DNA of 47,841 nt from Kiritimatiellales bacterium (lineage in GTDB: Bacteria; Verrucomicrobiota; Kiritimatiellia; UBA8416; JAIOPI01). The stretch is taken from positions 1 to 47,841 of the forward strand of contig CAMFEP010000003.1 in the NCBI GenBank assembly GCA_945949405.1, read 5' to 3'. Below, piece by piece: positions 22,066 through 44,509 of the stretch. The notes beneath the pieces were generated by a model. It saw only the letters and a list, made by a program, of their open reading frames with translations. It did no database searches and had not been told where the DNA came from. The stretch's first letter is position 1. Every line of letters starts with the position of its first letter. The translations under genes were made by a program, and so were the position numbers.

Positions 22066-22124
22066 CCGCGTTCCCTTCAAAATGCCGCTTGCAGTCTGAC
22101 CGGCCCGGATTAAGCTCTTTCGGC

Positions 22125-25049
22125 GTGAAGAAGTTTTTGCGATTGAGCTTGTTATGCATCCTGTTGGACGGCCCGCTCGCCGTTGCCAATCCCCTTCCCG
22201 ATGCTCCCGCCGCGAATAATCCGGCCCCGGAAACCAGCCAGCCAACCGTCGCCTCGTTCGCCGCGCAGGCGCGTTCGCAGATTGATGCGCGGCTCCTTGA
22301 TGAAGCCTCCCACACCTTGCAGCAGGGCTTGGAGGTCTTCCCGGATAGCGCCCTCCTGCTGCGCCTCAAGGGTGCGCTAGAACGCCGACAGGGCAACAAT
22401 GCCGCGGCACTCATTACCCACGAAGCCCTCGCCAAGGCCGACCCAGCCAACGAAGCAGACAGGTCCGTGCTGGCCCTGCTCCTGGCAGACGCCGCCACCC
22501 GCGCCACCACCCAGGACGCCGCCGCCATGCTCGCCCGCGCCATGCCACTTTCCGACTACAACGCCGATATCACCGCCGCTTACTGTCTCGCCGCCGCCCG
22601 CGTCAAACAACCCGAAGCCGTGATCGCCGCCTACGAACACCTCGACGCGCCGCATCGCGAACACCCCAGCCTGCTCACCGCCGCCGCCGCCAGCTACCGC
22701 GAACTGGAGCGCTTCGACGATGCCGCCACCCTCTATGACCGACTGCTCACCGCCTCGCCCAAAGACCCGGCGCTGGCCGACGCCTACGTCGACGCGCTGC
22801 TCAAGGGCCAGTCCGCCACCACCGGCGCGCGCGTCGCCGCCGCCGCGAAACGGCACCCCGACTGCCTCCCGCTGCTGCGCGCCTATGTGCAGTGGTGTCT
22901 CGATCACGGCGAACCCTGGCGCGGCCTGCAAACCCTGACGCAAGTGCTCATGATGGCACCCGACGAACACAATGCCGCCAACCAGCGCGTCGCCCTCCTG
23001 GCCGACCTCGGCTGCGCCACCCTCGCCCGGGATTTCACCAAAACCTACAACACCACCATCGATGAGACCGTGCAGCAGCGTGTGCGCACCCGCATGGCGG
23101 AGGCAGAAGCCAACTGGCGAAGGATCGACAGCACCGCCGGCGCACCGTCTGACCTCCAGCCCGGACTCCAAACGGAACCCACAACAGCCCCCAAAGGCTT
23201 GCTGACGCTGGACTATGGCGACATCACCGAGGAAGCCGCGCCGGGTTCCACCAGCGTGGATCTGACCATGCTGATCCAGCAAATTGAGTATCTGCGTGGA
23301 CACGGCTTCAAATTCGTCAGCGATCGCGACGTGTCCGCCGCCAGGCGCGGGAAGAAACCTTTGCCGGCGCGGGCCGCGTTGCTCCTCTTCCACGGCGGAT
23401 TCGCCTCATTCGCCGAGCGCGTCATGCCCGTTCTCGAGCAATATCACTATCCCGCGCTCCTCGCCATTCCCACCGCAAAACTAGAGCAAAAACGCGTCGC
23501 CGCCCCCACGCCCGCCCTGATGACATGGGAACAGGTGCGCACCCTTGCCGCCAATCCGATGCTCACGCTGGTTTCCATGTCCCACAGTCTGGACAACGTT
23601 GCCCAAAGCAACCCACAGGGCCGCCTGGCCCCGGCCGCGCATTCCTGCCTCTATCTTCCCCAAACCTCGCGCTACGAAACCGTCGATGAATATCGCGAGC
23701 GCATCACGGCCGATCTCAAAACCTCCCAACGCCTGCTCGCCTCGCGCACGGGGCGAGTGACCGACATTCTGCTCTGGCCGGAGGGCGTCTATAATCACCT
23801 CACCCTCGATGCGGCGCGCATGCTCGACTATGGCCTGATGTTTGCCGCGGAAACCCCCAACATGCCAAGGGACACGGACGTATTCCCCACCTTCGTGCCC
23901 GTCGGCGCCACCACCCTGGAAAACTTCGCCAGCCGCGTTTGGCAGTGGGGCCTGCCCCCCAAGCCAGACACCCGCCCTTCCCTCGCCATGCCGCTCAATC
24001 TCGCCAGCGTCATCGGCAGCTCGGCGGATCAAACCCGCGCCAATCTCTCCACCGCCGTGGAGCGCGCCGTCAGCGCCGGGGTGGACACAGTCTATCTGTC
24101 CGCCTGCACGGACGAAAATGGCGACGGCGCCGCCGAATCCGCCTTCTTCCCCAACCGTACCCTGCCCATGAAAGCCGACCTCCTCGACCACGCCGCAAGC
24201 CTGCTGCGCTATCGCGGAATCGAGGTCGTGGTGGTCATGCCCGTGCTCGGCATCCACCCGCCCGTGAAGGAACCTGATCAACGCCTCCTCGTCATGGAAT
24301 TCCACCTGGGCCAGGTTGCCCCGGACCCCTGGCGCTTCCGCCTGACACCATTCCACCCGGAGGCCCTCCGCATGATTCGTGAATTGCACGAGGATCTGGC
24401 CGCGCACGTGGACCTGGACAACGTGCTCTTCGGCCGTGACGCCTACTTGACGGATTTTGAGGATGGAGGCCCCATGGCCGCGGCATTCGCCCGTGAAAAA
24501 GCCGGCATTCACGAGCGCAATCCGAAAGAGTTTTCGCCCGACCAACGCCAGCAGTGGGTGGCGTTGAAATCCGTTACCATCGGCAATCTTCTCGACGACC
24601 TGCAGGCCGCCATTACCCTCTGGCACCCCTCCGCCCGGTTTGGCCGCTTCCTCTATGCACCCGTCCTGCTCGATCCCATCGCCCGTGAATGGTTTACCCA
24701 GGACTACCAGGCAACCCTCGCCAAGTACCACTTCGTCTGTGTCGACGCGAATCCCGAACTTTATGCGACGGAATCCCCCCTGGCCTGGCTGCATGATCTC
24801 GCCGCCAAGGCTGCGGCAACCCCTCAAGGCATCGAAAAAACCGTCTTTTGCATCCCCCTTCTGCAGGACAAACAGGAAGATTGGCTGTCAAAATCATCCT
24901 GGACCAAACGCACCGTGGAATTGGGCTCCGCCGGCGCCCGGCATATGGCCTTTGAGCCCGATCTGCCCCTCCAGGATACCCCCTCCCTGTCCTCCATTCA
25001 GGCCGTTCACAGGGCAATCGACCGTCTCACCCCCACCCCAAAACACTAG
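22125..25049 (+). CDS. TPR protein fused to a PgaB-like deacetylase/hydrolase with lost catalytic motifs
   Basis: 974 residues from a GTG at 22125, with a signal peptide (FLRLSLLCILLDGPLAVA). Residues about 50-340 are TPR-like helices. Residues about 360-610 match the deacetylase domain of PgaB/HmsF: NPQGRLAPAAHS, YETVDEYRERITADLKTSQ and LLWPEGVYNH. The catalytic FDDGY motif reads FHGGF (His423-Gly424), and the second metal His after SMSHS is missing. Residues about 640-960 match the PgaB C-terminal hydrolase: VDTVYLSACTDENGDG, FFPNRTLPMKADLLDHAA and LFGRDAYLTDFED, where PgaB has FHDD. It probably binds poly-N-acetylglucosamine-like glycan without cutting it. No pgaC or pgaD is nearby; the polysaccharide locus follows. 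Confidence 0.75.
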   Translation: MKKFLRLSLLCILLDGPLAVANPLPDAPAANNPAPETSQPTVASFAAQARSQIDARLLDEASHTLQQGLEVFPDSALLLRLKGALERRQGNNAAALITHEALAKADPANEADRSVLALLLADAATRATTQDAAAMLARAMPLSDYNADITAAYCLAAARVKQPEAVIAAYEHLDAPHREHPSLLTAAAASYRELERFDDAATLYDRLLTASPKDPALADAYVDALLKGQSATTGARVAAAAKRHPDCLPLLRAYVQWCLDHGEPWRGLQTLTQVLMMAPDEHNAANQRVALLADLGCATLARDFTKTYNTTIDETVQQRVRTRMAEAEANWRRIDSTAGAPSDLQPGLQTEPTTAPKGLLTLDYGDITEEAAPGSTSVDLTMLIQQIEYLRGHGFKFVSDRDVSAARRGKKPLPARAALLLFHGGFASFAERVMPVLEQYHYPALLAIPTAKLEQKRVAAPTPALMTWEQVRTLAANPMLTLVSMSHSLDNVAQSNPQGRLAPAAHSCLYLPQTSRYETVDEYRERITADLKTSQRLLASRTGRVTDILLWPEGVYNHLTLDAARMLDYGLMFAAETPNMPRDTDVFPTFVPVGATTLENFASRVWQWGLPPKPDTRPSLAMPLNLASVIGSSADQTRANLSTAVERAVSAGVDTVYLSACTDENGDGAAESAFFPNRTLPMKADLLDHAASLLRYRGIEVVVVMPVLGIHPPVKEPDQRLLVMEFHLGQVAPDPWRFRLTPFHPEALRMIRELHEDLAAHVDLDNVLFGRDAYLTDFEDGGPMAAAFAREKAGIHERNPKEFSPDQRQQWVALKSVTIGNLLDDLQAAITLWHPSARFGRFLYAPVLLDPIAREWFTQDYQATLAKYHFVCVDANPELYATESPLAWLHDLAAKAAATPQGIEKTVFCIPLLQDKQEDWLSKSSWTKRTVELGSAGARHMAFEPDLPLQDTPSLSSIQAVHRAIDRLTPTPKH

Positions 25050-27860: not shown

Positions 27861-27909
27861 CGCGCCCGAATCATGCTTGGATCGAATCTGCGTTTCAAAA
27901 AGGATGCTT

Positions 27910-29385
27910 ATGTCGCCGTGGTTGCACCCCACTCGCTGCTTGCTCGTTATGCTCGGCGTTGCCTGCCTCGCCGGTTGCAGTAGTCAGGATTTTGGCACGA
28001 CGACTGGCGGCATCAATGACGTGGTGGAGACCGGCCAGTCCTACACCCCCAAGGGCGACGAGGCCGCCATCCAAGCCCGCGCCCAACAACTGGCCAACGC
28101 CTTGCTCGCCTGGCAACGCCAGCAGGGCATCGCGAAAGAGGATTACTCCATCGGCCCCGATGACGTGCTCGCCGTCACGATCTTCGACCTCACCACCCCC
28201 GGTGAACCCACCGTACAACGCCTGACCGTGACCCAAAATGGCATGGCGCTTCTTCCCTTGATCGGGGAAGTTCTCGTCGCCGGCTTGACAGCCCGGCAGG
28301 CCGAGGCGCGCATCATCGGCCTCTACGCGGGCGAGTATCTCAAAGATCCACGCGTCACCGTGGAGGTCGCCGAGTTCAAGAGCGCACCCGTCGTGGTCAC
28401 GGGCGCCGTGGGCAGCCCCGGCATCTATTATCTCCAACACAACCGCAGCACCGTGCTGGATATGCTCTCACTGGCACAAGGTCTCTCCGCCAGCGCCGGC
28501 CAGGAATTGCTGATTGTGCGCAACCGCGCCAACGCCGCAATCCCGGCCGCCGCGTCCAGCCCGGATGCCGGTATGGATGATGAGGCCACGCTCGATTACG
28601 ACTTCTCCAAATTCCCCGCCGAATCCAACTCGGTTGTCGCGGCCACGGACGCGCACACAGCCCCATCGACCAACACCATCCTGACCCCATCCATATCGCC
28701 CGCCGAGACGAAGAAATCGCGCCTTCATCTCTTCGGCAAAAAAAGCACGGGGAGCGCGAAGCCGGCACCCACCGTGGCGGCCACCGAGTCCACCCCTGCC
28801 GAAAAACCAGCGAAGAAAAAGTCCGCCAAATCGTCCCGCAAGAAAAACAAGAACACAGCCGACACCAACGCAGTCGAGGCCGTCACCGAAACACTCCCGC
28901 TCGCCGCCGCCGATTCCGATACTGCGGACACCGGCGACGAAGACGGTCCGGAAATGATCACCGTGGATTTGAAGCGCCTGCTCGACCGCGGCGACATCCG
29001 CCTGAACGCCACCATCCTCGGAGGCGACATCATCACCGTGCCCGCGCGCCAGTTGCACTATGTCTATGTGCTCGGCTATGTGCAACGCGCCGGCGCGTTT
29101 GAAATCGAGGCCGGCAACGAAACCATCCCCGCGCTGCAGGCCGTAGCCCTCGCCGGAGGCCTCTCACCGTCGGCCCGCGCCCAAAATTCATTCCTCATCC
29201 GCCAATCCGATAACCGCCGCCAGGTCATTCCCGTGAACCTCACGAAAATAGCGCGCGGCGACGACCCCCCGGTATTCATGCAACCAGGCGACAGCCTCGT
29301 CATCGGTTCCAGCTGGCTCGCCAAATTGGGCGAATTCATCAAACCGTCGGCAAGCGTGGGGGCCAGCGTCTCTCCTGTGCCATAA
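27910..29385 (+). CDS. Wza-type polysaccharide export lipoprotein with a disordered insert
   Basis: 491 residues from the ATG at 27910 (AAGG 6 bases upstream; the ATG at 27904 is too close to it). Lipoprotein signal MLGVACLAGC. The poly-export domain begins YSIGPDDVLAVTIFDL, and SLBB domains follow (APVVVTGAVGSPGIYYL; LHYVYVLGYVQRAGAFEIEAG). The first SLBB is interrupted at about residues 208-345 by an Ala/Ser/Lys-rich, low-complexity insert (EKPAKKKSAKSSRKKNKN). It should form the outer-membrane export channel that works with the Wzc-like protein 81 bp downstream. First gene of the locus. Confidence 0.88.
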   Translation: MSPWLHPTRCLLVMLGVACLAGCSSQDFGTTTGGINDVVETGQSYTPKGDEAAIQARAQQLANALLAWQRQQGIAKEDYSIGPDDVLAVTIFDLTTPGEPTVQRLTVTQNGMALLPLIGEVLVAGLTARQAEARIIGLYAGEYLKDPRVTVEVAEFKSAPVVVTGAVGSPGIYYLQHNRSTVLDMLSLAQGLSASAGQELLIVRNRANAAIPAAASSPDAGMDDEATLDYDFSKFPAESNSVVAATDAHTAPSTNTILTPSISPAETKKSRLHLFGKKSTGSAKPAPTVAATESTPAEKPAKKKSAKSSRKKNKNTADTNAVEAVTETLPLAAADSDTADTGDEDGPEMITVDLKRLLDRGDIRLNATILGGDIITVPARQLHYVYVLGYVQRAGAFEIEAGNETIPALQAVALAGGLSPSARAQNSFLIRQSDNRRQVIPVNLTKIARGDDPPVFMQPGDSLVIGSSWLAKLGEFIKPSASVGASVSPVP

Positions 29386-29466
29386 AGACGTCGCCTGGGC
29401 ACAGGCATGGACACGCCGCCACGCGGAAATCCGCTCGCTATAATTCACGAAAACTGGGAAGGCAAC

Positions 29467-32400
29467 ATGGCCGAACAACACACGCCGCCGCCGGGCGCCC
29501 ACGATGCCCACACCGCTGGTCAACCCATCTCAATCCTCTGGGAATATCTCGGCATCCTGCGCCGCCGCGTCTGGGTCATCCTGCCCATCGTGATCATCGC
29601 CTCCACGATCGGCCTCATCAAGGCCTTCCAAACCCCGCGCATCTACCGCGCCACCACACGCATGCTCGTGGAACGGCAGGCTCCCAACGTGATGAAATTC
29701 GGCGCCGATTCGCAGGAAGGTGAATCCTACGACCCGGATTTCTACAGCACCCAGACAGAGCTCATCCGCAGCCGCGCGGTCATGGATACCGCCCTCCGCG
29801 AACCGGGCGTCTCCAAACTGTTTTCCAGCGGCGAGCAAACCGCCAGCCAATCCTCCTGGGCCGGCGAATTGAAGCGCACACTCCTCGCGGCGCTGGGCGC
29901 CGAACCCGCCCCGCCTCCGGAAGCCTGGGTGCTGCTGCGCGACAAGGTCGTCGCGATCCATCTGAAGGATTCACACTTCATGACCATCGATGCCCTGGAC
30001 GGTGAGCCCAATGCCGCGGCGGACATCGCCAATGCCGCGGCACGCGCCTATCAGGAATACCACCGCGAACGCAAAATCGGCCAATTGGGCGTGGCCTTTA
30101 GCCTGCTGGAAAAGGAGCGCAACAAGGAGGAAGCCGATCTGTTGGAAGCGGAAAAAGCGCTCCAGGCCTTCCGCGAACGCGCGCGTAGCGTCACCGTCAA
30201 CTCCGCGGAGGACCAGCCCGCGATCGAGCGCCTCGAAAAACTCAATGAGCAACTCACCGACGTGCAGCTGAAACGCATTGAGTTGAGTTCCCAGATCGGT
30301 GTCATGAAGCAAGCGCTCGATTCGGATACGCAGGTTGGCGAGGCGATCAACGAGCGCCTCTTCACCATCCCGGTCATCCAGACCGACCTCGGCCTGTCCG
30401 AAACACGCAAGGCCCTCGCCGATGCGGAGAAGGACATTGCCGTGCTGGCCCAGACCTACGGCTTGCGCCACCCGCGCTACCAGGCGGCCCAGACCAACGT
30501 CACGCTCCTGCGCCAGCAATTCAAGGCGGCCCTGCGCGAAATCACCAGCTCCCACGATAACCGCCTCGAAATGCTGAAAAACCAGGAAACTGAAATCCAG
30601 AAGACCTATGAGGAACAAAAACTCACCGCCCTGGAACTTGCCAAGGAGTCTTTCGAGTACACGCGCCTGAAGAACGCGGCGGACCGCCACCGCGAATTGT
30701 TCGATTCAATTGTGGAGCGCATGCGCGAGGTGGACGTCACCTCAAACCTCGCCCAAACCAACATTCAAATCATCGAAAAGGCATCCCCACCCCTATCACC
30801 CGTCAACCAGGGCCGCTTCCGCAAGGTGCTCGCGTCCGCATTCTTCGGCTTCCTGTTCGGCGCCATGCTCGCCCTCATGTTCGAAAGCCTGGACGACACC
30901 ATCAAAACGCCCGAGGACATCAAGAGCCGCTTGCGCGCGCCGTTCCTCGGTTTCATTCCGGCCGTGCAGCCGGAAACCGCCGCCGGGGAGGAAGGCAAGG
31001 AGCCCCCACCGCCACCTGATCTCAAACAACGTGCCCTGACCGCCTACCAGCAATCGCTGAAACTCGCAAGGCAGCGCCTCGGCATCTATTTTCCCAAGCT
31101 GGCACTCCCGGAAGACTTGAACGAAAATCGCGGCACCCCCGAGGAACGCGCCTACCGCGGAACGTTGGTCTTGTCCGAACCCATGTCGTCCATCGCCGAA
31201 GCCTACCGCGGCATCCGCGCCAGCCTCTTCTATTCCATTCCCGCCGAGGAAATCAAAACGCTGTCCATGACTTCCAGCCGCCCGCAGGAAGGCAAGACCA
31301 CCACCTCCTGCAACCTCGCCCTGTCCATCGCTCAAACCGGCAAACGCGTGCTGCTGATCGACGGGGACTTGCACCGCCCCTCCGTGAACACGGTGCTCAA
31401 CCTCGAAAATAAAGTGGGCCTGACCAGCGTGTTGGTGGGGCAATCGACATTCGAAGCCGCCCTGCAAAAAATCGTGCACAATGGCAAGACCGTCGAGCAT
31501 CTCGATATTCTGGCCGCCGGCCCTTCCACCCCCAACCCGTCGGAACTGCTGGGCTCCAATGTAATGCGCGACCTTCTCGCCGCCGCCCGCAAGGCCTACG
31601 ACTGGGTGCTCGTGGACACCCCGCCGATCCTCTTCGTGTCCGATGCCGGGATCTTGAGCACGATGTGCGATGGCGTCATCATCGTCGTGCGCTCGGGCAA
31701 CAGCACGCGATCGCTCCTCAACCGCACCACCGAACAACTGGCCGGCCTCAAGGCCCGCATCATTGGCAGCATCCTCAACGGCGTGGTCGTGGCGCGCATG
31801 GGACGCTACTACTCCTCCTATTACAGCTATGGCTATGCGCGCTATGCCAAGGAATACCAGCGCACCTACTACAGCGGCGAAGAAGGCACGGCGGGCAGCG
31901 AGGCCGCGGAAGAAACCGCGCAGCGGCGGGAACTGCCCCGCGGCGTGCCAGCGTCAACCGTGACGCCCTCCGGACCAACCCCGGCCTCCGTCGTCTCCGC
32001 CGCCATCGCCGCCGCCGCGTCACCCGCACCAATTGCCATACCCCCGCCACCCGCCGTCACCGCCAAGACGCCAGACGCCCCGGCCCCGGAGATCGACCGC
32101 ACCCGCGCACGCGAATTGCAGAGCCGCCTCATCCGTGCCGAGCAGGAGACCCAACAGGCGAGCGCCGAACGCGAAGTGGAACGCCAGTCCATCGCCCGCG
32201 TCCGCGCCGAACTCGAGGAGGCGCGCCATACCATACGCGAGTTGGAAGCGCTGCACCCGCAAGCCACGCTCGCCGCCAAAACCGCGGAAGCACAACTCCA
32301 AGACCTGCGCATCGAGCATGAAGCCCTGCGGCGCGAAATCGAAGCCGAACGCGGTGCCCGGCGGCGCGCCGATCAGCGCAGCGCGGAGTTGGAACATCGC

Positions 32401-33696
32401 CTCGCGAAGCAACCGGCCCCCACCGCCCAGGCCCCCAGCGCGGGCCTTGCGGCGCTCGAAGTCCAGCTCGCCGAGGCGCGTCGGGAAATTGATGCCCTCG
32501 CCGGCGCGCGCGCGGATCGCGATGCCGCGCTGCAACGCGCGGAAAGCCAGGCTGCCCAATGGCAGCAACGCGCGAAGTCCACGGAGTCGCTCGTGGAGGA
32601 AACAAAGCGCCAGCTTGCCGGGAAACAAACGGCTCACGATACGTTCGCCGCTGAAGTGGAAGATGCCAAACGCCAGCTCGCCGAGGAACGCACGCGCGCC
32701 GACCGGCTGGCCACGGACCTCGCCAAACAGGAACAGGATGCCAATCGCAAGCTGGACGAACTGGCCGCCCGCCTGGATGACGCGCACAAGCAGGCCAAGG
32801 CCGTGCCCGTGGCGCCCACACCGCAGGTTGTGCAGGAGACCTTGCGCCGCGCCGATTCCTACCTTTCCACCGGCAACTACACGGAAGCCCGCAGCGTGTT
32901 GCGCACCCTCGTGGAAAGCGCTCCCGGCGTGGATGAAGCCTGGGAGTTCCTGCTGGACACGCTGCTGCTGGGCCACGATCAAGCCGAGTTGACGGAATGG
33001 CTCCGGCGCTTTCCGGAACAGTACGGCCTGCCCACACATGTGCCGTCCCTCGCGGAAGGGCACCGCGCGCTGCTGCAAAACAACTCCGACCTCGCGCTGC
33101 AATACTACGAGTCCGCCCTCAAGGAACGCAAATCCGGGCGCGCCGCGCAGGAAGGCGTGCTGCGGGCCGCCATCCAAAAAGGTGACACCGATCTGGTCCG
33201 GGCCCGCATCCAACGCCTGCTCTGGACCCATCGTCAAAGCGCCTATGCCCACTATGTCGTGGCCTACCTCTATGTGCTCGACAACAAACCGGCACGGGCG
33301 GAAAAAGCGCTACGCAAGAGCCTCGGACTGCGCAAGACGCCGGAAGCGTTGATGGATCTCGCCTGGCTCTTGAGCGAACGGCGTGAGCATGATGAGGCCG
33401 AGCAGTTGGCTCGTGCCGCCAGCGTGCTATACCCAATCATCCCCACCGCGTGGGAAACCCTGGGCGTCATCCTCACCCGCGCGCAACGCTATGCGGAAGC
33501 CGAACGTGCCCTGCAGCGCGCCCACGCCCTGGCCCCGGGCAGCACGAGCACGATGCTCTACCTCGCCGAACTCTATCTGCGCCAGGGAAACAAGAATGCC
33601 TCCATGGAACTGGGGGCGCGGCTCGCCGGCATGCAGGGCCGCCTCACACCGCCGGAAGTCGCACGCTTGAGCGCGTTGCGCGCCAAGCTGGCCTGA
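29467..33696 (+). CDS. Wzz/BY-kinase (Wzc-like) protein fused to a coiled coil and TPR tail
   Basis: 1409 residues from the ATG at 29467 (GGGAAGG upstream). Order: a chain-length Wzz domain with membrane helices at about 34-53 and 452-470 and a long periplasmic coiled coil; a tyrosine autokinase domain with Walker A RPQEGKTTTSC (about 603), Walker A' LLIDGDLHRP (about 628) and Walker B VLVDTPP (about 713); and a Tyr cluster GRYYSSYYSYGYARYAKEY at about 780-800. In ordinary Wzc the protein ends there. Here a Pro/Ala linker, about 230 residues of coiled coil (875-1110) and TPR repeats (1120-1409) follow. It controls polysaccharide polymerisation and export with Wza. The extra cytoplasmic tail may recruit partners. 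Confidence 0.9.
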   Translation: MAEQHTPPPGAHDAHTAGQPISILWEYLGILRRRVWVILPIVIIASTIGLIKAFQTPRIYRATTRMLVERQAPNVMKFGADSQEGESYDPDFYSTQTELIRSRAVMDTALREPGVSKLFSSGEQTASQSSWAGELKRTLLAALGAEPAPPPEAWVLLRDKVVAIHLKDSHFMTIDALDGEPNAAADIANAAARAYQEYHRERKIGQLGVAFSLLEKERNKEEADLLEAEKALQAFRERARSVTVNSAEDQPAIERLEKLNEQLTDVQLKRIELSSQIGVMKQALDSDTQVGEAINERLFTIPVIQTDLGLSETRKALADAEKDIAVLAQTYGLRHPRYQAAQTNVTLLRQQFKAALREITSSHDNRLEMLKNQETEIQKTYEEQKLTALELAKESFEYTRLKNAADRHRELFDSIVERMREVDVTSNLAQTNIQIIEKASPPLSPVNQGRFRKVLASAFFGFLFGAMLALMFESLDDTIKTPEDIKSRLRAPFLGFIPAVQPETAAGEEGKEPPPPPDLKQRALTAYQQSLKLARQRLGIYFPKLALPEDLNENRGTPEERAYRGTLVLSEPMSSIAEAYRGIRASLFYSIPAEEIKTLSMTSSRPQEGKTTTSCNLALSIAQTGKRVLLIDGDLHRPSVNTVLNLENKVGLTSVLVGQSTFEAALQKIVHNGKTVEHLDILAAGPSTPNPSELLGSNVMRDLLAAARKAYDWVLVDTPPILFVSDAGILSTMCDGVIIVVRSGNSTRSLLNRTTEQLAGLKARIIGSILNGVVVARMGRYYSSYYSYGYARYAKEYQRTYYSGEEGTAGSEAAEETAQRRELPRGVPASTVTPSGPTPASVVSAAIAAAASPAPIAIPPPPAVTAKTPDAPAPEIDRTRARELQSRLIRAEQETQQASAEREVERQSIARVRAELEEARHTIRELEALHPQATLAAKTAEAQLQDLRIEHEALRREIEAERGARRRADQRSAELEHRLAKQPAPTAQAPSAGLAALEVQLAEARREIDALAGARADRDAALQRAESQAAQWQQRAKSTESLVEETKRQLAGKQTAHDTFAAEVEDAKRQLAEERTRADRLATDLAKQEQDANRKLDELAARLDDAHKQAKAVPVAPTPQVVQETLRRADSYLSTGNYTEARSVLRTLVESAPGVDEAWEFLLDTLLLGHDQAELTEWLRRFPEQYGLPTHVPSLAEGHRALLQNNSDLALQYYESALKERKSGRAAQEGVLRAAIQKGDTDLVRARIQRLLWTHRQSAYAHYVVAYLYVLDNKPARAEKALRKSLGLRKTPEALMDLAWLLSERREHDEAEQLARAASVLYPIIPTAWETLGVILTRAQRYAEAERALQRAHALAPGSTSTMLYLAELYLRQGNKNASMELGARLAGMQGRLTPPEVARLSALRAKLA

Positions 33697-33731: not shown

Positions 33732-35783
33732 ATGGACAGGGCGACGAAGACACAGCGCATCCTCGAAAGCCTTGCGCGGTGGCTGGTCACGGCGGCGGTG
33801 GTCCTCGCACCGTGGCTCTTTGGCTCCACCGATCCTTGGGCCTATCTCCTGATCAGCGGCCTCGTCGGCAGCGGCGGCATCATCTGGCTCTTTGCCCTCG
33901 TCTGCTCCCCCGCGCCACGCATTCGCATCCCCGGGATGACCGCGCTGCTGCTCGGCCTGATTGCCTATGCCGCCATCCAGGGCAGTCCCATGCCGGCCTC
34001 CATCACGAAAGTGTTCAATAAAATTTCGTACACAGTCACGGATCCCGCGCGCTCCGTGCTGGCCCAGGTGGCCACGGCCACGACCCCAACGCCCGCGGCC
34101 GCGCCCAACATCATCCCCTCGTCGCTTTCCATTTCACTGCCCGCCACACGCTCCAGCATCGGTCTCATGATCGCCTGTGTGCTCGCCTTTCTCGTGCTGG
34201 TCAACACCAGCCGCGGCTGGTCGGACATCAATCGCGCGGCAGGCGTCGTGGTCGTCTCCGCCTTCATCATGGCCGTGCTGGGCATGGTCCATAAACTTTC
34301 GGGATCTCAGGAAATCTTTTGGTTTCACACGCCACGCTTCGGGGGCAACGTGTTCGGCCCTTTCACAAACAGGAACCACTTCGCGGCCTACATAAACATG
34401 GCCCTCGGCCTGGTCCTCGGATTGTTCCTCACCTCCCGTCCGCTGGGACAGGCCGGCGCCGGCATGGATTGGCGCGAACGCCTGGCCTGGTTTTCCTCCC
34501 GCGGGGCGAGCCGAAGCCTGCTCGCGGCCTTCGCCGTGGTCATCATGGGCGCCGCCGTATGCATGTCCCTCTCACGCGGCGCCATCTTGAGCCTGGCCCT
34601 CACCTTGGGCGGACTTTGCCTGCTGCTGGGGCGCGCCCATCCCGCACTGGCCAAAGCCCGCGCGACACTTATCGCCGTGTCCGTCGCCATGATCGCGTTG
34701 ATGCTGATCCTGGGCGTGCGTGAAATCGTGCAACGCATGGGCAGCCTTAAAGAGGTCGCCAGCAACCCCTTCGCCGACATGCGTTTCATCGTCACCCGCG
34801 ATTCACTCGGCATCATCGCAGACGCACCGCTGCTGGGCACCGGCTTCGGCACCTTCCGCCATGTCTACACCATGTACCAAACCCCGCCCCTGACCTTGCG
34901 CTGGCTGCACGCGCACAATGACTGGGTCCAATTGTTCGTGGAAGCGGGGCTGCTCGGTGCGGGATTGTTCATTGCCGCGATTCTGGCCGGCCTGCTCGTC
35001 GTGCGCCGCCGCCTCACCGACACCGCAGACACGCCCCGCCTCATGCTGCTCGGCATCAGCGTGAGCCTCGGCACCATCGCCTTCCACAGCTTCATCGACT
35101 ACGGCCTGCACAAGCCCGCGAACACGCTGATGCTGGCCTTTTGCGCCGCTCTGGGAATCGCCGCCGTGCATCTGCGCCGCACCAGCCCCACCCCCGCCGC
35201 ATCGCGCACGCAGCCAGTAGCCGCGGCGCTGCGCGCCGTGGACTCGCGCCCCCTTCCTCCGGGCCTCCTGCGCGTGCTGGCCCTCGTCGCGCTCGCCGGG
35301 CTGGTCTGGCTGCTCCCCCTCCGCATGCGCGAATTGCGCGGGCAGCTCGCCTTCAGCCGTTTCCTCTATCTCAAACGCCTCACCGAAAAAGTCTCAACCT
35401 CGGAAGAATTGGCGCGCACCGTCAGTGGCGCCCGGAGCGAAGCCATGCTCGTCAACGCCTTCGCGCGCTACGACGCCGATGCCCTCGCCGAACTCACCTC
35501 CGCGCTGCTGCGCTGGTCCGGCGATGCCACCCTCGATCGCGGCGAACGCGCGGCGCTCTCGCAACAAGCCGCCAGCCTCGCCTTCTGGTCCGTCTGCGCC
35601 GCCCCTTCCGACTACCTGCCTTGGCTCTCCCTGGCCCGGACCCAGATGTCCCTCGGCCACTGGGACGAAGCCGATCTTTGCTTGCAGCGGGCCAGGGAGT
35701 TGGTGCGCCACCCCGCCGACGTGAAGATGTTTGAGATCCTCCGCCATCGCGAGAGCGACGCCGCCGAGCGGCAAATTCCTTGA
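33732..35783 (+). CDS. O-antigen ligase/polymerase (Wzy_C) family protein with C-terminal helical tail
   Basis: 683 residues with 10 or more membrane segments. The Wzy_C/WaaL signature is present: FGPFTNRNHFAAYINMALGLVLG, MSLSRGAILSLALTLGG, LGTGFGTFRHVYTMY and WLHAHNDWVQLFVEAGLLG. The C-terminal about 130 residues after the last helix look TPR-like (LAFWSVCAAPSDYLPWLSLARTQMSLGHWDEADLCLQRA). It acts in the inner membrane, either polymerising repeat units or ligating the chain. It lies 35 bp after the Wzc-like gene. A second Wzy-like gene is at 43046, so this one may be the ligase. Confidence 0.82.
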   Translation: MDRATKTQRILESLARWLVTAAVVLAPWLFGSTDPWAYLLISGLVGSGGIIWLFALVCSPAPRIRIPGMTALLLGLIAYAAIQGSPMPASITKVFNKISYTVTDPARSVLAQVATATTPTPAAAPNIIPSSLSISLPATRSSIGLMIACVLAFLVLVNTSRGWSDINRAAGVVVVSAFIMAVLGMVHKLSGSQEIFWFHTPRFGGNVFGPFTNRNHFAAYINMALGLVLGLFLTSRPLGQAGAGMDWRERLAWFSSRGASRSLLAAFAVVIMGAAVCMSLSRGAILSLALTLGGLCLLLGRAHPALAKARATLIAVSVAMIALMLILGVREIVQRMGSLKEVASNPFADMRFIVTRDSLGIIADAPLLGTGFGTFRHVYTMYQTPPLTLRWLHAHNDWVQLFVEAGLLGAGLFIAAILAGLLVVRRRLTDTADTPRLMLLGISVSLGTIAFHSFIDYGLHKPANTLMLAFCAALGIAAVHLRRTSPTPAASRTQPVAAALRAVDSRPLPPGLLRVLALVALAGLVWLLPLRMRELRGQLAFSRFLYLKRLTEKVSTSEELARTVSGARSEAMLVNAFARYDADALAELTSALLRWSGDATLDRGERAALSQQAASLAFWSVCAAPSDYLPWLSLARTQMSLGHWDEADLCLQRARELVRHPADVKMFEILRHRESDAAERQIP

Positions 35784-35906
35784 TTGCCCGTTTCTCGCAC
35801 CGCGACGAATTTTGCCAGTTTATTCCTGCGAATCCGTCGCATATGGCGCATAATCGACCGGGACGGAGTCTGCCCGCGTATCCCCGATTTTATCCGGATT
35901 TTCTGC

Positions 35907-37463
35907 ATGTCCACTGAACGACAAATCGCCTTGAGCACGGGCGGCCGCTATACCGCCATTGCCATCTCGACCGTGATCGGGTTCGTCCTCACGCCGTACC
36001 TCATCCATGCCATCGGCGTGATGGCCTACGGCTTGCAAGCGCTTTCAACCCAGACCATTCAGATCGTAAGCCTCGCCGCCACCGCCATCGGCGTCAGCTA
36101 TGAACGCCATGCCGCCGCGCACTATGCCCGCAAAGAATTCGATCGCATGAACACCATTCTCTCGGTGGGCCTGCAACTGTCGCTGATCTCCGCCAGTTTA
36201 TTGCTCGCCGGCGCCCTCGTGTCTGCCCTCTATGCCAAAAGTTTTTTTGACCTCCCGGATGAACTCGTGCATGACGCCCGCCTTGTGCTTGCCATCACCG
36301 GCTTCGCCGCGGCGTGCCATATCGTCTACGGCGTTTGGAAATCGCCCCTCTTTATCACACAGCGCTTCTATCTCGAATCGCTGGGCCAGATCCTCGCCAC
36401 CATCGGCGCCGCCGTCGGCGTGGTCCTGATCTTTAACTGGCACCACCCCTCAATCATCACTTGGGTCCTGCTTGCCTGTGGCCTGCGCGTCTTGCTGGAA
36501 TGGTGCTGCGTCATTCCCCTGTGCCGGCGCGCCCTGCCCGAAATGCACGTGACGCTGCGCAACACCGCCTCCCGTGCACAATTCGTGAGCATCTTGAGCT
36601 TCGGCGGCCTCACCTTCCTCGCCGTCATCGGTTCGTTGCTCTATTACGCCTGCGATTCGATCATTATTGCCAATCTGGATTCGCTCGGCATCGGACAGGT
36701 CACCTACTACAGCGTGGCCCAACGCTGGGATCCGCAAATCCGCATGGTGATCACCGCCTTCGGAGGCGTACTCACGCCGCTGATGACCGCCGACGCCGCC
36801 GTCGGCAACCTCGACCGCCTGCGTAACACCGTCCTGCGCGGATCACGCTACGCCCTGATCCTCGCGCTCTACCCCTCCATCGTGCTCGGAGTCTTTGCCG
36901 TCCCATTCTTCCATTTATGGCTCGGCCCGGAATTTTCGGAGGCCAGCGTGCCCGTCCTGCGGGTGATCCTCGTGGGCCTCGTCGCGTCCGTGCCCGGCAT
37001 CATCGCTTACCAGGCCCTCACCGCCCTTGGCCAACTCAAATGGGCCGCCGTGACCACCCTCGCCGCCGGCGTGCTGAATATTGTCCTCGCCATCGTCCTC
37101 GTGCGCTTCGCGCATCTCGGCCTGGTCGGTGTCGCCATTGCCAGTGCCAGCGCCATCATCATCGTCCATGCCGTCTGCTTCCCCATCATCTTAAGCCGCG
37201 CTGCCGCGTTACCGGTGACGACCCTGGGGTTGCACGGCGCCCTGCGCGCCTTGCTCGGCGGCCTCCCCCTGCTCGCCTTCGGCCTCGCCATCCACCAAAT
37301 CTGGCACGCCCGCAACCTCATGGAACTGATGCTGCAGTTCGCCGTTTGCGGCTTGTTCTACGCCGCCAGCGTCTGGACCATCAGCCTCACCAGCGAAGAT
37401 CGACGCAAGGTCCGCTCAGCCCTCGCAACCCTGCCCGGCCTAAAATCCCGCGCCCCACGCTGA
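35907..37463 (+). CDS. Wzx-type polysaccharide flippase
   Basis: 518 residues from the ATG at 35907; the track start is a TTG in a 123-bp spacer. It has 12 or more membrane helices in the MOP/polysaccharide-transport pattern: TGGRYTAIAISTVIGFVLTPYLIHAIGV at the start, LSFGGLTFLAVIGSLLYYACDSIIIANL in the middle, and LVGVAIASASAIIIVHAVCFPIIL. It would flip the undecaprenyl-linked repeat unit to the periplasmic face. It lies between the Wzy_C gene and the first glycosyltransferase. Confidence 0.85.
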   Translation: MSTERQIALSTGGRYTAIAISTVIGFVLTPYLIHAIGVMAYGLQALSTQTIQIVSLAATAIGVSYERHAAAHYARKEFDRMNTILSVGLQLSLISASLLLAGALVSALYAKSFFDLPDELVHDARLVLAITGFAAACHIVYGVWKSPLFITQRFYLESLGQILATIGAAVGVVLIFNWHHPSIITWVLLACGLRVLLEWCCVIPLCRRALPEMHVTLRNTASRAQFVSILSFGGLTFLAVIGSLLYYACDSIIIANLDSLGIGQVTYYSVAQRWDPQIRMVITAFGGVLTPLMTADAAVGNLDRLRNTVLRGSRYALILALYPSIVLGVFAVPFFHLWLGPEFSEASVPVLRVILVGLVASVPGIIAYQALTALGQLKWAAVTTLAAGVLNIVLAIVLVRFAHLGLVGVAIASASAIIIVHAVCFPIILSRAAALPVTTLGLHGALRALLGGLPLLAFGLAIHQIWHARNLMELMLQFAVCGLFYAASVWTISLTSEDRRKVRSALATLPGLKSRAPR

Positions 37464-43045: not shown

Positions 43046-44509
43046 ATGTCTCTTCTCCCCAGCCAGCCCCCGCCCGCTCCCGCGCACGACCCCGTCCCGG
43101 ATTCCAATTTTTTCGACTGCCGCCTCACGCGCGGCGAGGGATGGATTCTCGTGTATACCCTCATCAGCGCCATGGCCCTGCAATGCGAGCCCGTGCTGAA
43201 ATCGGTCTTCGCCTATCCCTTGATCATTGCGATGGCGATTCTGGGCTGGCTCTCGCCGTTTTCCGGCATGTTCTACATCGCCTGCGCCCAAAGCCTGCCC
43301 TTCCCGGAACACGCCCCCTTCAACCCCGCGCAGCTCGGCGTACTGACCTGGCTGGTCGTCGCGCTGCTGCGTTACCGAGGCCTGCGCTTCCACGGCATCA
43401 AACATCTCTTGGTCTATCTGCCATTCTTGCTGTGGATGGAATTACTCTGGGATGACCCCATCCCGGTGTTTTCGCTCAAAAGCGAGTACGCCAAGGCCAT
43501 CATGTATATGGTGATCGCCTGCCAGCTCATCAATGAATCGAAGGGGCGCCATCTGAAAAGCCTGATGGGCCTCTGCCTCGGAGCCTTGATGGTGACCAAC
43601 GCCTACTGGGGCGCGGCCCTGGGCCTGCCCATTCAACTTTCCGACTGGGGCGGCGCGCGCCAGGAATTTACCCGCCTGGGCGGTGCCCGCGCGGATTCGA
43701 TCATGGTTTGGCCGCCCACCCTCATGGGCGCCTTCGGCATCGTCGGCATCGCCTTCAGCGTCCTGACCCGTGCCCCCTCGCGCCAGACCTCCGTGCTCAA
43801 GTGGCTGGCCTGCGCCGTCTTCCTGCTGTCGCTGCCACCCCTGCTGGGAACAATGTCGAACGCTGCCTACCTCGGCTGGAGCCTGATGCTGGGATGGACC
43901 CTCTGGCTGATGCACATCCTGCATATTCGCGGCCGCCTGCCCATCCAGTTGGCCCGCAACGTCGTGGGCGCCTTGCTGATGTTCGCCTGCGCCATGGTCA
44001 TCTGCTACCAGACCGACACCCTGAACATCCGCTCGCGCATGCACGCCCTGAAAATCACCTATGCGGAGCAAAGCGAAGAATTCGGCCTCGCCGCATCCCG
44101 CTCACTCGACTGGCAATACTCAATCAAATCCATCGCCAGCCATCCGGTCACAGGCCGCGCCTTCGCCGAGGATACCGAGGAGGCGCCCCCAGGCTACCTC
44201 CCCTCCATGCCCGGCGAACACATGGGCAATTTTTTTTCCCACAATGTCTTTCTTGATATCGGCCGCCAGACCGGACTCCCCGGCGCCGCCATGCTGCTGA
44301 TCTTTTTCTTTTACCCGCTCGTGCGGCTCTGGCGCCGCCGCCAGTTCGATCGCTACATGGCCTTCATGCTCGCCCATTTCGCCCTGACCCTCTTCTGGAT
44401 GGTCCTCTCATTCCCCTTCTATAAAACCTTCTGGGCCTTCTGGATTCTGGCCTGCATCGCCGGCGATCCCATCCCACCCCCCGCCCGCACCCTCCGCGCT
44501 GCATCCTGA
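43046..44509 (+). CDS. Second Wzy-type O-antigen polymerase-like membrane protein
   Basis: 487 residues with about 10 membrane segments and a large periplasmic loop near the C-terminus. Typical features: LGTMSNAAYLGWSLMLGW, IASHPVTGRAFAEDTEEAPPGY, then MGNFFSHNVFLDIGRQTGLPGAAMLLIFFFYPLVRLW (the HN-x-FL-x5-GLPG type Wzy_C signature). It probably polymerises the repeat unit. The different protein at 33732 has the same general signature, so the division of labour is unknown. Tightly packed between glycosyltransferase genes. Confidence 0.78.
   Translation: MSLLPSQPPPAPAHDPVPDSNFFDCRLTRGEGWILVYTLISAMALQCEPVLKSVFAYPLIIAMAILGWLSPFSGMFYIACAQSLPFPEHAPFNPAQLGVLTWLVVALLRYRGLRFHGIKHLLVYLPFLLWMELLWDDPIPVFSLKSEYAKAIMYMVIACQLINESKGRHLKSLMGLCLGALMVTNAYWGAALGLPIQLSDWGGARQEFTRLGGARADSIMVWPPTLMGAFGIVGIAFSVLTRAPSRQTSVLKWLACAVFLLSLPPLLGTMSNAAYLGWSLMLGWTLWLMHILHIRGRLPIQLARNVVGALLMFACAMVICYQTDTLNIRSRMHALKITYAEQSEEFGLAASRSLDWQYSIKSIASHPVTGRAFAEDTEEAPPGYLPSMPGEHMGNFFSHNVFLDIGRQTGLPGAAMLLIFFFYPLVRLWRRRQFDRYMAFMLAHFALTLFWMVLSFPFYKTFWAFWILACIAGDPIPPPARTLRAAS

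Follow-up and report, generated by a model that had tools for sequence, protein, structure and literature searches.

The window analysed here is a 47,841-nucleotide stretch of a Kiritimatiellales bacterium (assembly GCA_945949405.1, contig CAMFEP010000003.1, forward strand), and the gene in question encodes a Wzc-type polysaccharide co-polymerase and bacterial tyrosine kinase (BY-kinase) that continues past its tyrosine cluster into a C-terminal tetratricopeptide repeat (TPR) domain. Wzc-type enzymes control the length of surface sugar chains. The frame is open from end to end (29407..33696, plus strand) and has no internal stop. Translation most likely begins at the ATG at 29467, which has a GGAAGG just 5' of it, and yields a product of 1409 amino acids. 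The gene is laid out as follows.

29467..33696, plus strand: whole gene, Wzc-type polysaccharide co-polymerase/BY-kinase with a C-terminal TPR domain, 1409 amino acids
29536..29799, plus strand: Wzz domain, residues 24-111, including transmembrane segment (TM) 1 at about 35-53 (PF02706, E=5e-9, above cut-off; hydropathy)
30664..30882, plus strand: GNVR region and TM2, residues 400-472 (PF13807 match at 400-471; TM at 454-472 by hydropathy)
31147..31866, plus strand: cytoplasmic BY-kinase domain, residues 561-800 (TIGR01007 match at about 565-800; CapB, Wzc and Etk structures matched at E 1e-31 to 1e-43; motifs)
31807..31872, plus strand: Tyr cluster, 10 Tyr at residues 781-802 (YYSSYYSYGYARYAKEYQRTYY), with overlapping YxY at 786-790
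31873..32094, plus strand: Pro/Ala-rich linker, residues 803-876, predicted disordered (predicted local distance difference test, pLDDT, 28-45 over most of the linker)
32095..32406, plus strand: long helix 1, 104 residues, 877-980, with coiled-coil-like heptads (AlphaFold2; heptad z=3.8 versus shuffles)
32440..32778, plus strand: long helix 2, 113 residues, 992-1104, with weaker heptads (AlphaFold2; heptad z=2.1 versus shuffles)
32821..33690, plus strand: C-terminal TPR domain, residues 1119-1408 (AlphaFold2, Foldseek, Pfam TPR families)

The protein has the Wzc sequence features that were tested. Two membrane segments predicted by hydropathy (35-53 and 454-472) flank the Wzz part, and the GNVR match of PF13807 is under cut-off in the window protein (20.8 bits) and over it in two relatives (G001 and G016). 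The kinase scores 181 bits against TIGR01007 (NCBIfam cut-off 108), matches the solved structures of the CapB, Etk and Wzc kinases with E values of 1e-28 or lower, and has a complete set of motifs, namely EX2RX2R at 578-584, Walker A K610, Walker A' D632/D634 and Walker B D717. Six tyrosines of the cluster are invariant across the alignment of relatives (Y785, Y790, Y793, Y797, Y801 and Y802). The last Tyr is followed by 607 residues, and the cluster is therefore internal, not terminal. Since the protein carries the features of Wzc without stopping at the Tyr cluster, we regard it as a variant of Wzc and not as a separate system. Indeed, it shares with Wzc of Escherichia coli K30 and K-12 the Wzz domain, the two membrane segments, the cytoplasmic BY-kinase, EX2RX2R, the Walker motifs, a Tyr-rich tail with YxY and an adjoining wza. 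However, the E. coli proteins end at the Tyr tail, whereas the window protein adds the residues described above, with the TPR domain last. By sequence, the closest solved kinase structures are those of the BY-kinases Staphylococcus aureus CapA/CapB and Etk (E 1e-35 to 1e-43); unlike the window protein, CapB is a separate kinase chain. We know of no TPRs in either CapB or Etk.

Along the protein, the order is thus Wzz, BY-kinase, 10-Tyr cluster, disordered linker, two long helices and eight TPRs. The first-pass annotation of this DNA had described about 600 residues past the Tyr cluster as a linker, a long coiled coil and TPRs, and this description proved accurate. When residues 475-1409 were modelled by AlphaFold2 with relatives, we obtained a kinase fold, disorder at ~775-874 spanning the Tyr cluster and the linker, the helices and the TPR array. 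Modelled alone, residues 1105-1409 gave a mean pLDDT of 93 and a predicted template modelling score (pTM) of 0.87, with 17 helices forming eight TPR hairpins and a cap. Pfam TPR families scored above cut-off between residues 1127 and 1387, and Foldseek matched the TPR part to consensus TPR proteins and to TPR subunits of the anaphase-promoting complex/cyclosome, which indicates fold and not kinship. As the heptad periodicity of the predicted long helices exceeds that of shuffled sequences, "coiled coil" seems a fair label for them. An Ala/Pro-rich stretch at 840-858 (hydropathy 1.7) was considered as a conserved membrane segment after the kinase and rejected, the linkers of relatives being charged or proline-rich there. 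Because no membrane segment is conserved after the kinase, the tail should be cytoplasmic. The earlier proposal that a kinase ring is linked to a scaffold for binding proteins therefore stands as anatomy, with an intact kinase, a Tyr cluster, a confidently predicted eight-repeat TPR array and no conserved TM between them.

We then compared 31 genomes of the order, among them the window's own (G000). The kinase-TPR fusion occurs in eight genomes and two families: G000, G001 and G003 (family f1), G016, G026 and G028 (family f14), and also G024 and G021. In G024, the contig ends within the fusion gene and the tail sits on a different contig. In G021 (L045:7581-8810), only the kinase end and the tail are left; the contig continues, but Wzz and the first part of the kinase are gone, and this gene is either broken or misassembled. 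All eight fusions have the TPR domain. The long helices are found only in G000 and G003, which rules out the coiled coil as a conserved feature, so that of the layout first proposed (coiled coil plus TPR) only the TPR half holds generally. In four further genomes (G012, G013, G010 and G004) the same kinase ends shortly past the Tyr cluster. The orthologous kinase of G005 (L044:8242-11241) ends in a long tail that is acidic, rich in proline and not TPR; what follows the Tyr cluster thus varies within the order.

The source genome is a fragmentary metagenome-assembled genome (1.96 Mb in 163 contigs, 76% complete, the window being contig 3), and this gives some room to the alternative that two genes were joined by a sequencing or assembly error, with a stop or frameshift missed after the Tyr cluster, as the first-pass annotation had allowed. 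Yet five other, separately assembled genomes (G001, G003, G016, G026 and G028) have an uninterrupted frame from the kinase into the TPRs, making six assemblies that read through. The TPR part is also constrained at the codon level. In f14, nonsynonymous divergence (dN) of this part is 0.17-0.35 against a synonymous divergence (dS) of 1.4 or more, that is, near-saturated synonymous change, from which we conclude that it is under purifying selection there. A join by error is thus extremely improbable and, judging from the relatives, already refuted.

Comparison within the order also bears on the origin of the tail. Orthologues elsewhere in the order end soon after the Tyr cluster, from which we conclude that the TPR domain was added to a Wzc kinase. 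When the tail was searched alone against its own genome, one other match was found at E <= 1e-10, a TMEM260-like protein (E 6e-32), whose TPR is 32% identical to the tail over 258 residues. This protein (L168:2927-6100, on contig 4 of G000) is a TMEM260-like membrane glycosyltransferase with C-terminal TPR. Most genomes of the order have a protein of similar size that the tail also matches. In the five genomes examined the TMEM260-like protein has ~1060 residues, and in the three of these that were scanned against Pfam it has TPRs at the C-terminus and a membrane part like that of TMEM260 (PF11028). The C-terminal TPR of this glycosyltransferase is, by sequence similarity, the nearest non-Wzc relative found for the tail. 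The TMEM260-like (DUF2723, PF11028) GT-C protein shares the C-terminal TPR with the window protein but is itself a glycosyltransferase integral to the membrane. Human TMEM260 and TMTC enzymes have their TPR-bearing or variable module on the lumenal side (PMC11292533), whereas the Wzc tail should be cytoplasmic. Kinship to the XrtA/PEP-CTERM protein PrsT was considered and set aside, the TIGR02917 match lying far below cut-off and the TMEM260-like link being stronger. In the kinase tree, all fusion kinases fall on one side of a branch (support 90/97). In the tail tree, f1 tails and f14 tails each form a supported group; the best tree separates the two (approximately unbiased test, p 0.25), the fusion kinases nonetheless being one group. 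These trees therefore neither show nor reject that the TPR tails of Wzc all go back to one origin.

Beyond the order, the scans were samples that returned only the best hits of each, from which rarer or more distant fusions could escape. With the fusion profile, no further TPR fusion of this kinase was seen among the matches listed for the class (240 genomes) and for the phylum (388 genomes). In 246 Planctomycetota genomes, we found three (G512, G582 and G600) that encode a different BY-kinase with about three TPRs behind it. At these loci (L193:2112-5069, L194:637-3624 and L195:485-3472), the cluster is poor in Tyr. Like the window protein, they run in frame from a BY-kinase into TPRs; they differ in having only about three repeats, a tail of ~165 residues and few Tyr. 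Because their kinases are distant from those of the Kiritimatiellia, this is likely a separate fusion, which suggests that the combination of kinase and TPR is useful. Among about 100 strong matches listed from 399 genomes of Pseudomonadota (the phylum of Variovorax), none reaches a TPR in an open frame, and the one long frame (1068 amino acids) stops four residues past the kinase match. Among plasmid records, no match spanned 80% of the query. In the literature on Wzc or BY-kinases with TPRs, most subscription journals lying outside its coverage, no description of such a tail was found. The remark made at first pass that no characterised protein with this layout was known to its author thus agrees with the papers covered, but the layout is not unique, being present in two families and, separately, in Planctomycetota.

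The surroundings of the gene are a standard Wzx/Wzy exopolysaccharide cluster, with the following neighbours.

27904..29385, plus strand: Wza-type outer-membrane export protein (Poly_export and SLBB), upstream neighbour
33732..35783, plus strand: Wzy_C polymerase/ligase, 683 amino acids, downstream neighbour, with 13 predicted TM and a TPR-like C-terminal domain
35784..37463, plus strand: Wzx-type flippase (MatE)

Further members of the cluster are glycosyltransferases, encoded between 36917 and 46894, and a protein with a weak hexapeptide-transferase match. A second Wzy_C protein lies at 43046-44509, and one of the two may be a ligase and not a polymerase. As candidates for a cognate Tyr phosphatase, the genome has two LMWPc genes (contigs C12 and C54), neither of them in the window. 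Elsewhere in the window, 22089-25049 encodes a PgaB-like poly-N-acetylglucosamine deacetylase/glycoside hydrolase with an N-terminal TPR region resembling the TPR part of PgaA, as if parts of two Pga proteins had been joined.

In every relative checked, wzy adjoins wzc. The order wza-wzc-wzy was found with the tail in G001, G003, G016, G026 and G028 and without it in G012 and G013. The presence of close tail-less orthologues at the same locus, together with a poorly conserved linker, would fit the possibility that the tail is a tolerated passenger of little effect, the fusion having spread by descent. Nevertheless, we consider this improbable, as the TPR part is open and selectively constrained despite the synonymous change noted above, the tail is kept in two families, and a similar fusion appears to have arisen separately in Planctomycetota.

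The first-pass annotation had named glycosyltransferases, Wzy and cell-envelope proteins as partners that the TPRs might tether, none of which gained support from this analysis. The conserved TPR-like C-terminal domain of the neighbouring Wzy_C protein, present even where Wzc has no tail, is likewise an extension of this kind in the same pathway, but it follows 13 membrane segments and is probably periplasmic. Because of this predicted location, Wzy is an unlikely direct partner of the tail, and binding of the cytoplasmic TPRs to the TPR-like domain of Wzy is unlikely.

The Tyr tail of E. coli Wzc inserts into the active site of the neighbouring protomer and is phosphorylated progressively inwards from its C-terminal end. 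After the fourth phosphorylation the octamer disassembles; dephosphorylation lets it reassemble, likely around Wzy (PMC11986026, PMC12881504). As the Tyr cluster of the window protein is conserved, internal and followed by a flexible linker, the same chemistry would be possible with a TPR array trailing behind. We thus propose that the protein probably works as an ordinary Wzc-type co-polymerase (PCP-2a) in a Wzx/Wzy exopolysaccharide system and uses its cytoplasmic TPR tail to bring a partner to the export ring. In an ancestor of the two Kiritimatiellia families, the tail of Wzc would have been extended by a TPR domain, which has eight repeats in the window protein. By analogy with E. coli Wzc, the octamer would cycle through phosphorylation of its Tyr tails, the disordered linker giving the internal cluster enough freedom to enter the active site of the adjacent protomer. 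As many as eight TPR arrays would hang beneath the kinase ring, where they could draw a partner from the cytoplasm or from close to the membrane to the polymerase as it assembles, and disassembly of the ring would lower multivalent TPR binding. The long helices of G000 and G003 may act as a spacer of variable length.

Several observations weigh against recruitment of a partner. No gene was found to co-occur with the tail. Within f14, TPR parts are 58-72% identical compared to 77-92% for the kinases, and the window tail is only 26-38% identical to the other tails; the TPRs thus evolve more rapidly than the kinase, and any surface that they use for binding may vary from lineage to lineage. Furthermore, tail-less orthologues keep the wza-wzc-wzy locus, and the tail is thus not needed for basic function.

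The main rival to partner recruitment is self-regulation of the ring. Here neighbouring TPR domains, aided by the long helices, would contact one another or the kinase and so adjust the stability of the octamer or the access of the phosphatase, with no outside partner. Wzc output follows octamer stability (PMC11986026), the heptad patterns of the long helices could pair between protomers, and the rapid evolution of the tail is as expected of an internal tuning element. However, the long helices are missing from the other fusions, the superhelix made by eight TPRs is large and open, as is typical of domains that bind peptides or proteins, and the predicted monomer (475-1409, overall pTM 0.41) has no confident contact between TPRs and kinase. 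We therefore regard such internal tuning as possible but not probable.

Under partner recruitment, a more specific and rather doubtful proposal is that the kinase ring is a phosphorylation-switched docking platform: assembly would gather up to eight TPR arrays, which would recruit biosynthetic enzymes or envelope proteins, and phosphorylation would scatter them. To our knowledge, how the cytoplasmic kinase ring of Wzc is coupled to the cytoplasmic sugar-building enzymes is not settled. If true, the docking platform would join recruitment and the polymerisation of the chain in a single protein. Because its Tyr cluster lies mid-chain and not at the end, the fusion also tests the ratchet model of Wzc. 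Overall, a natural Wzc with a built-in arm that may bind proteins would serve as a direct bait for finding coupling partners.

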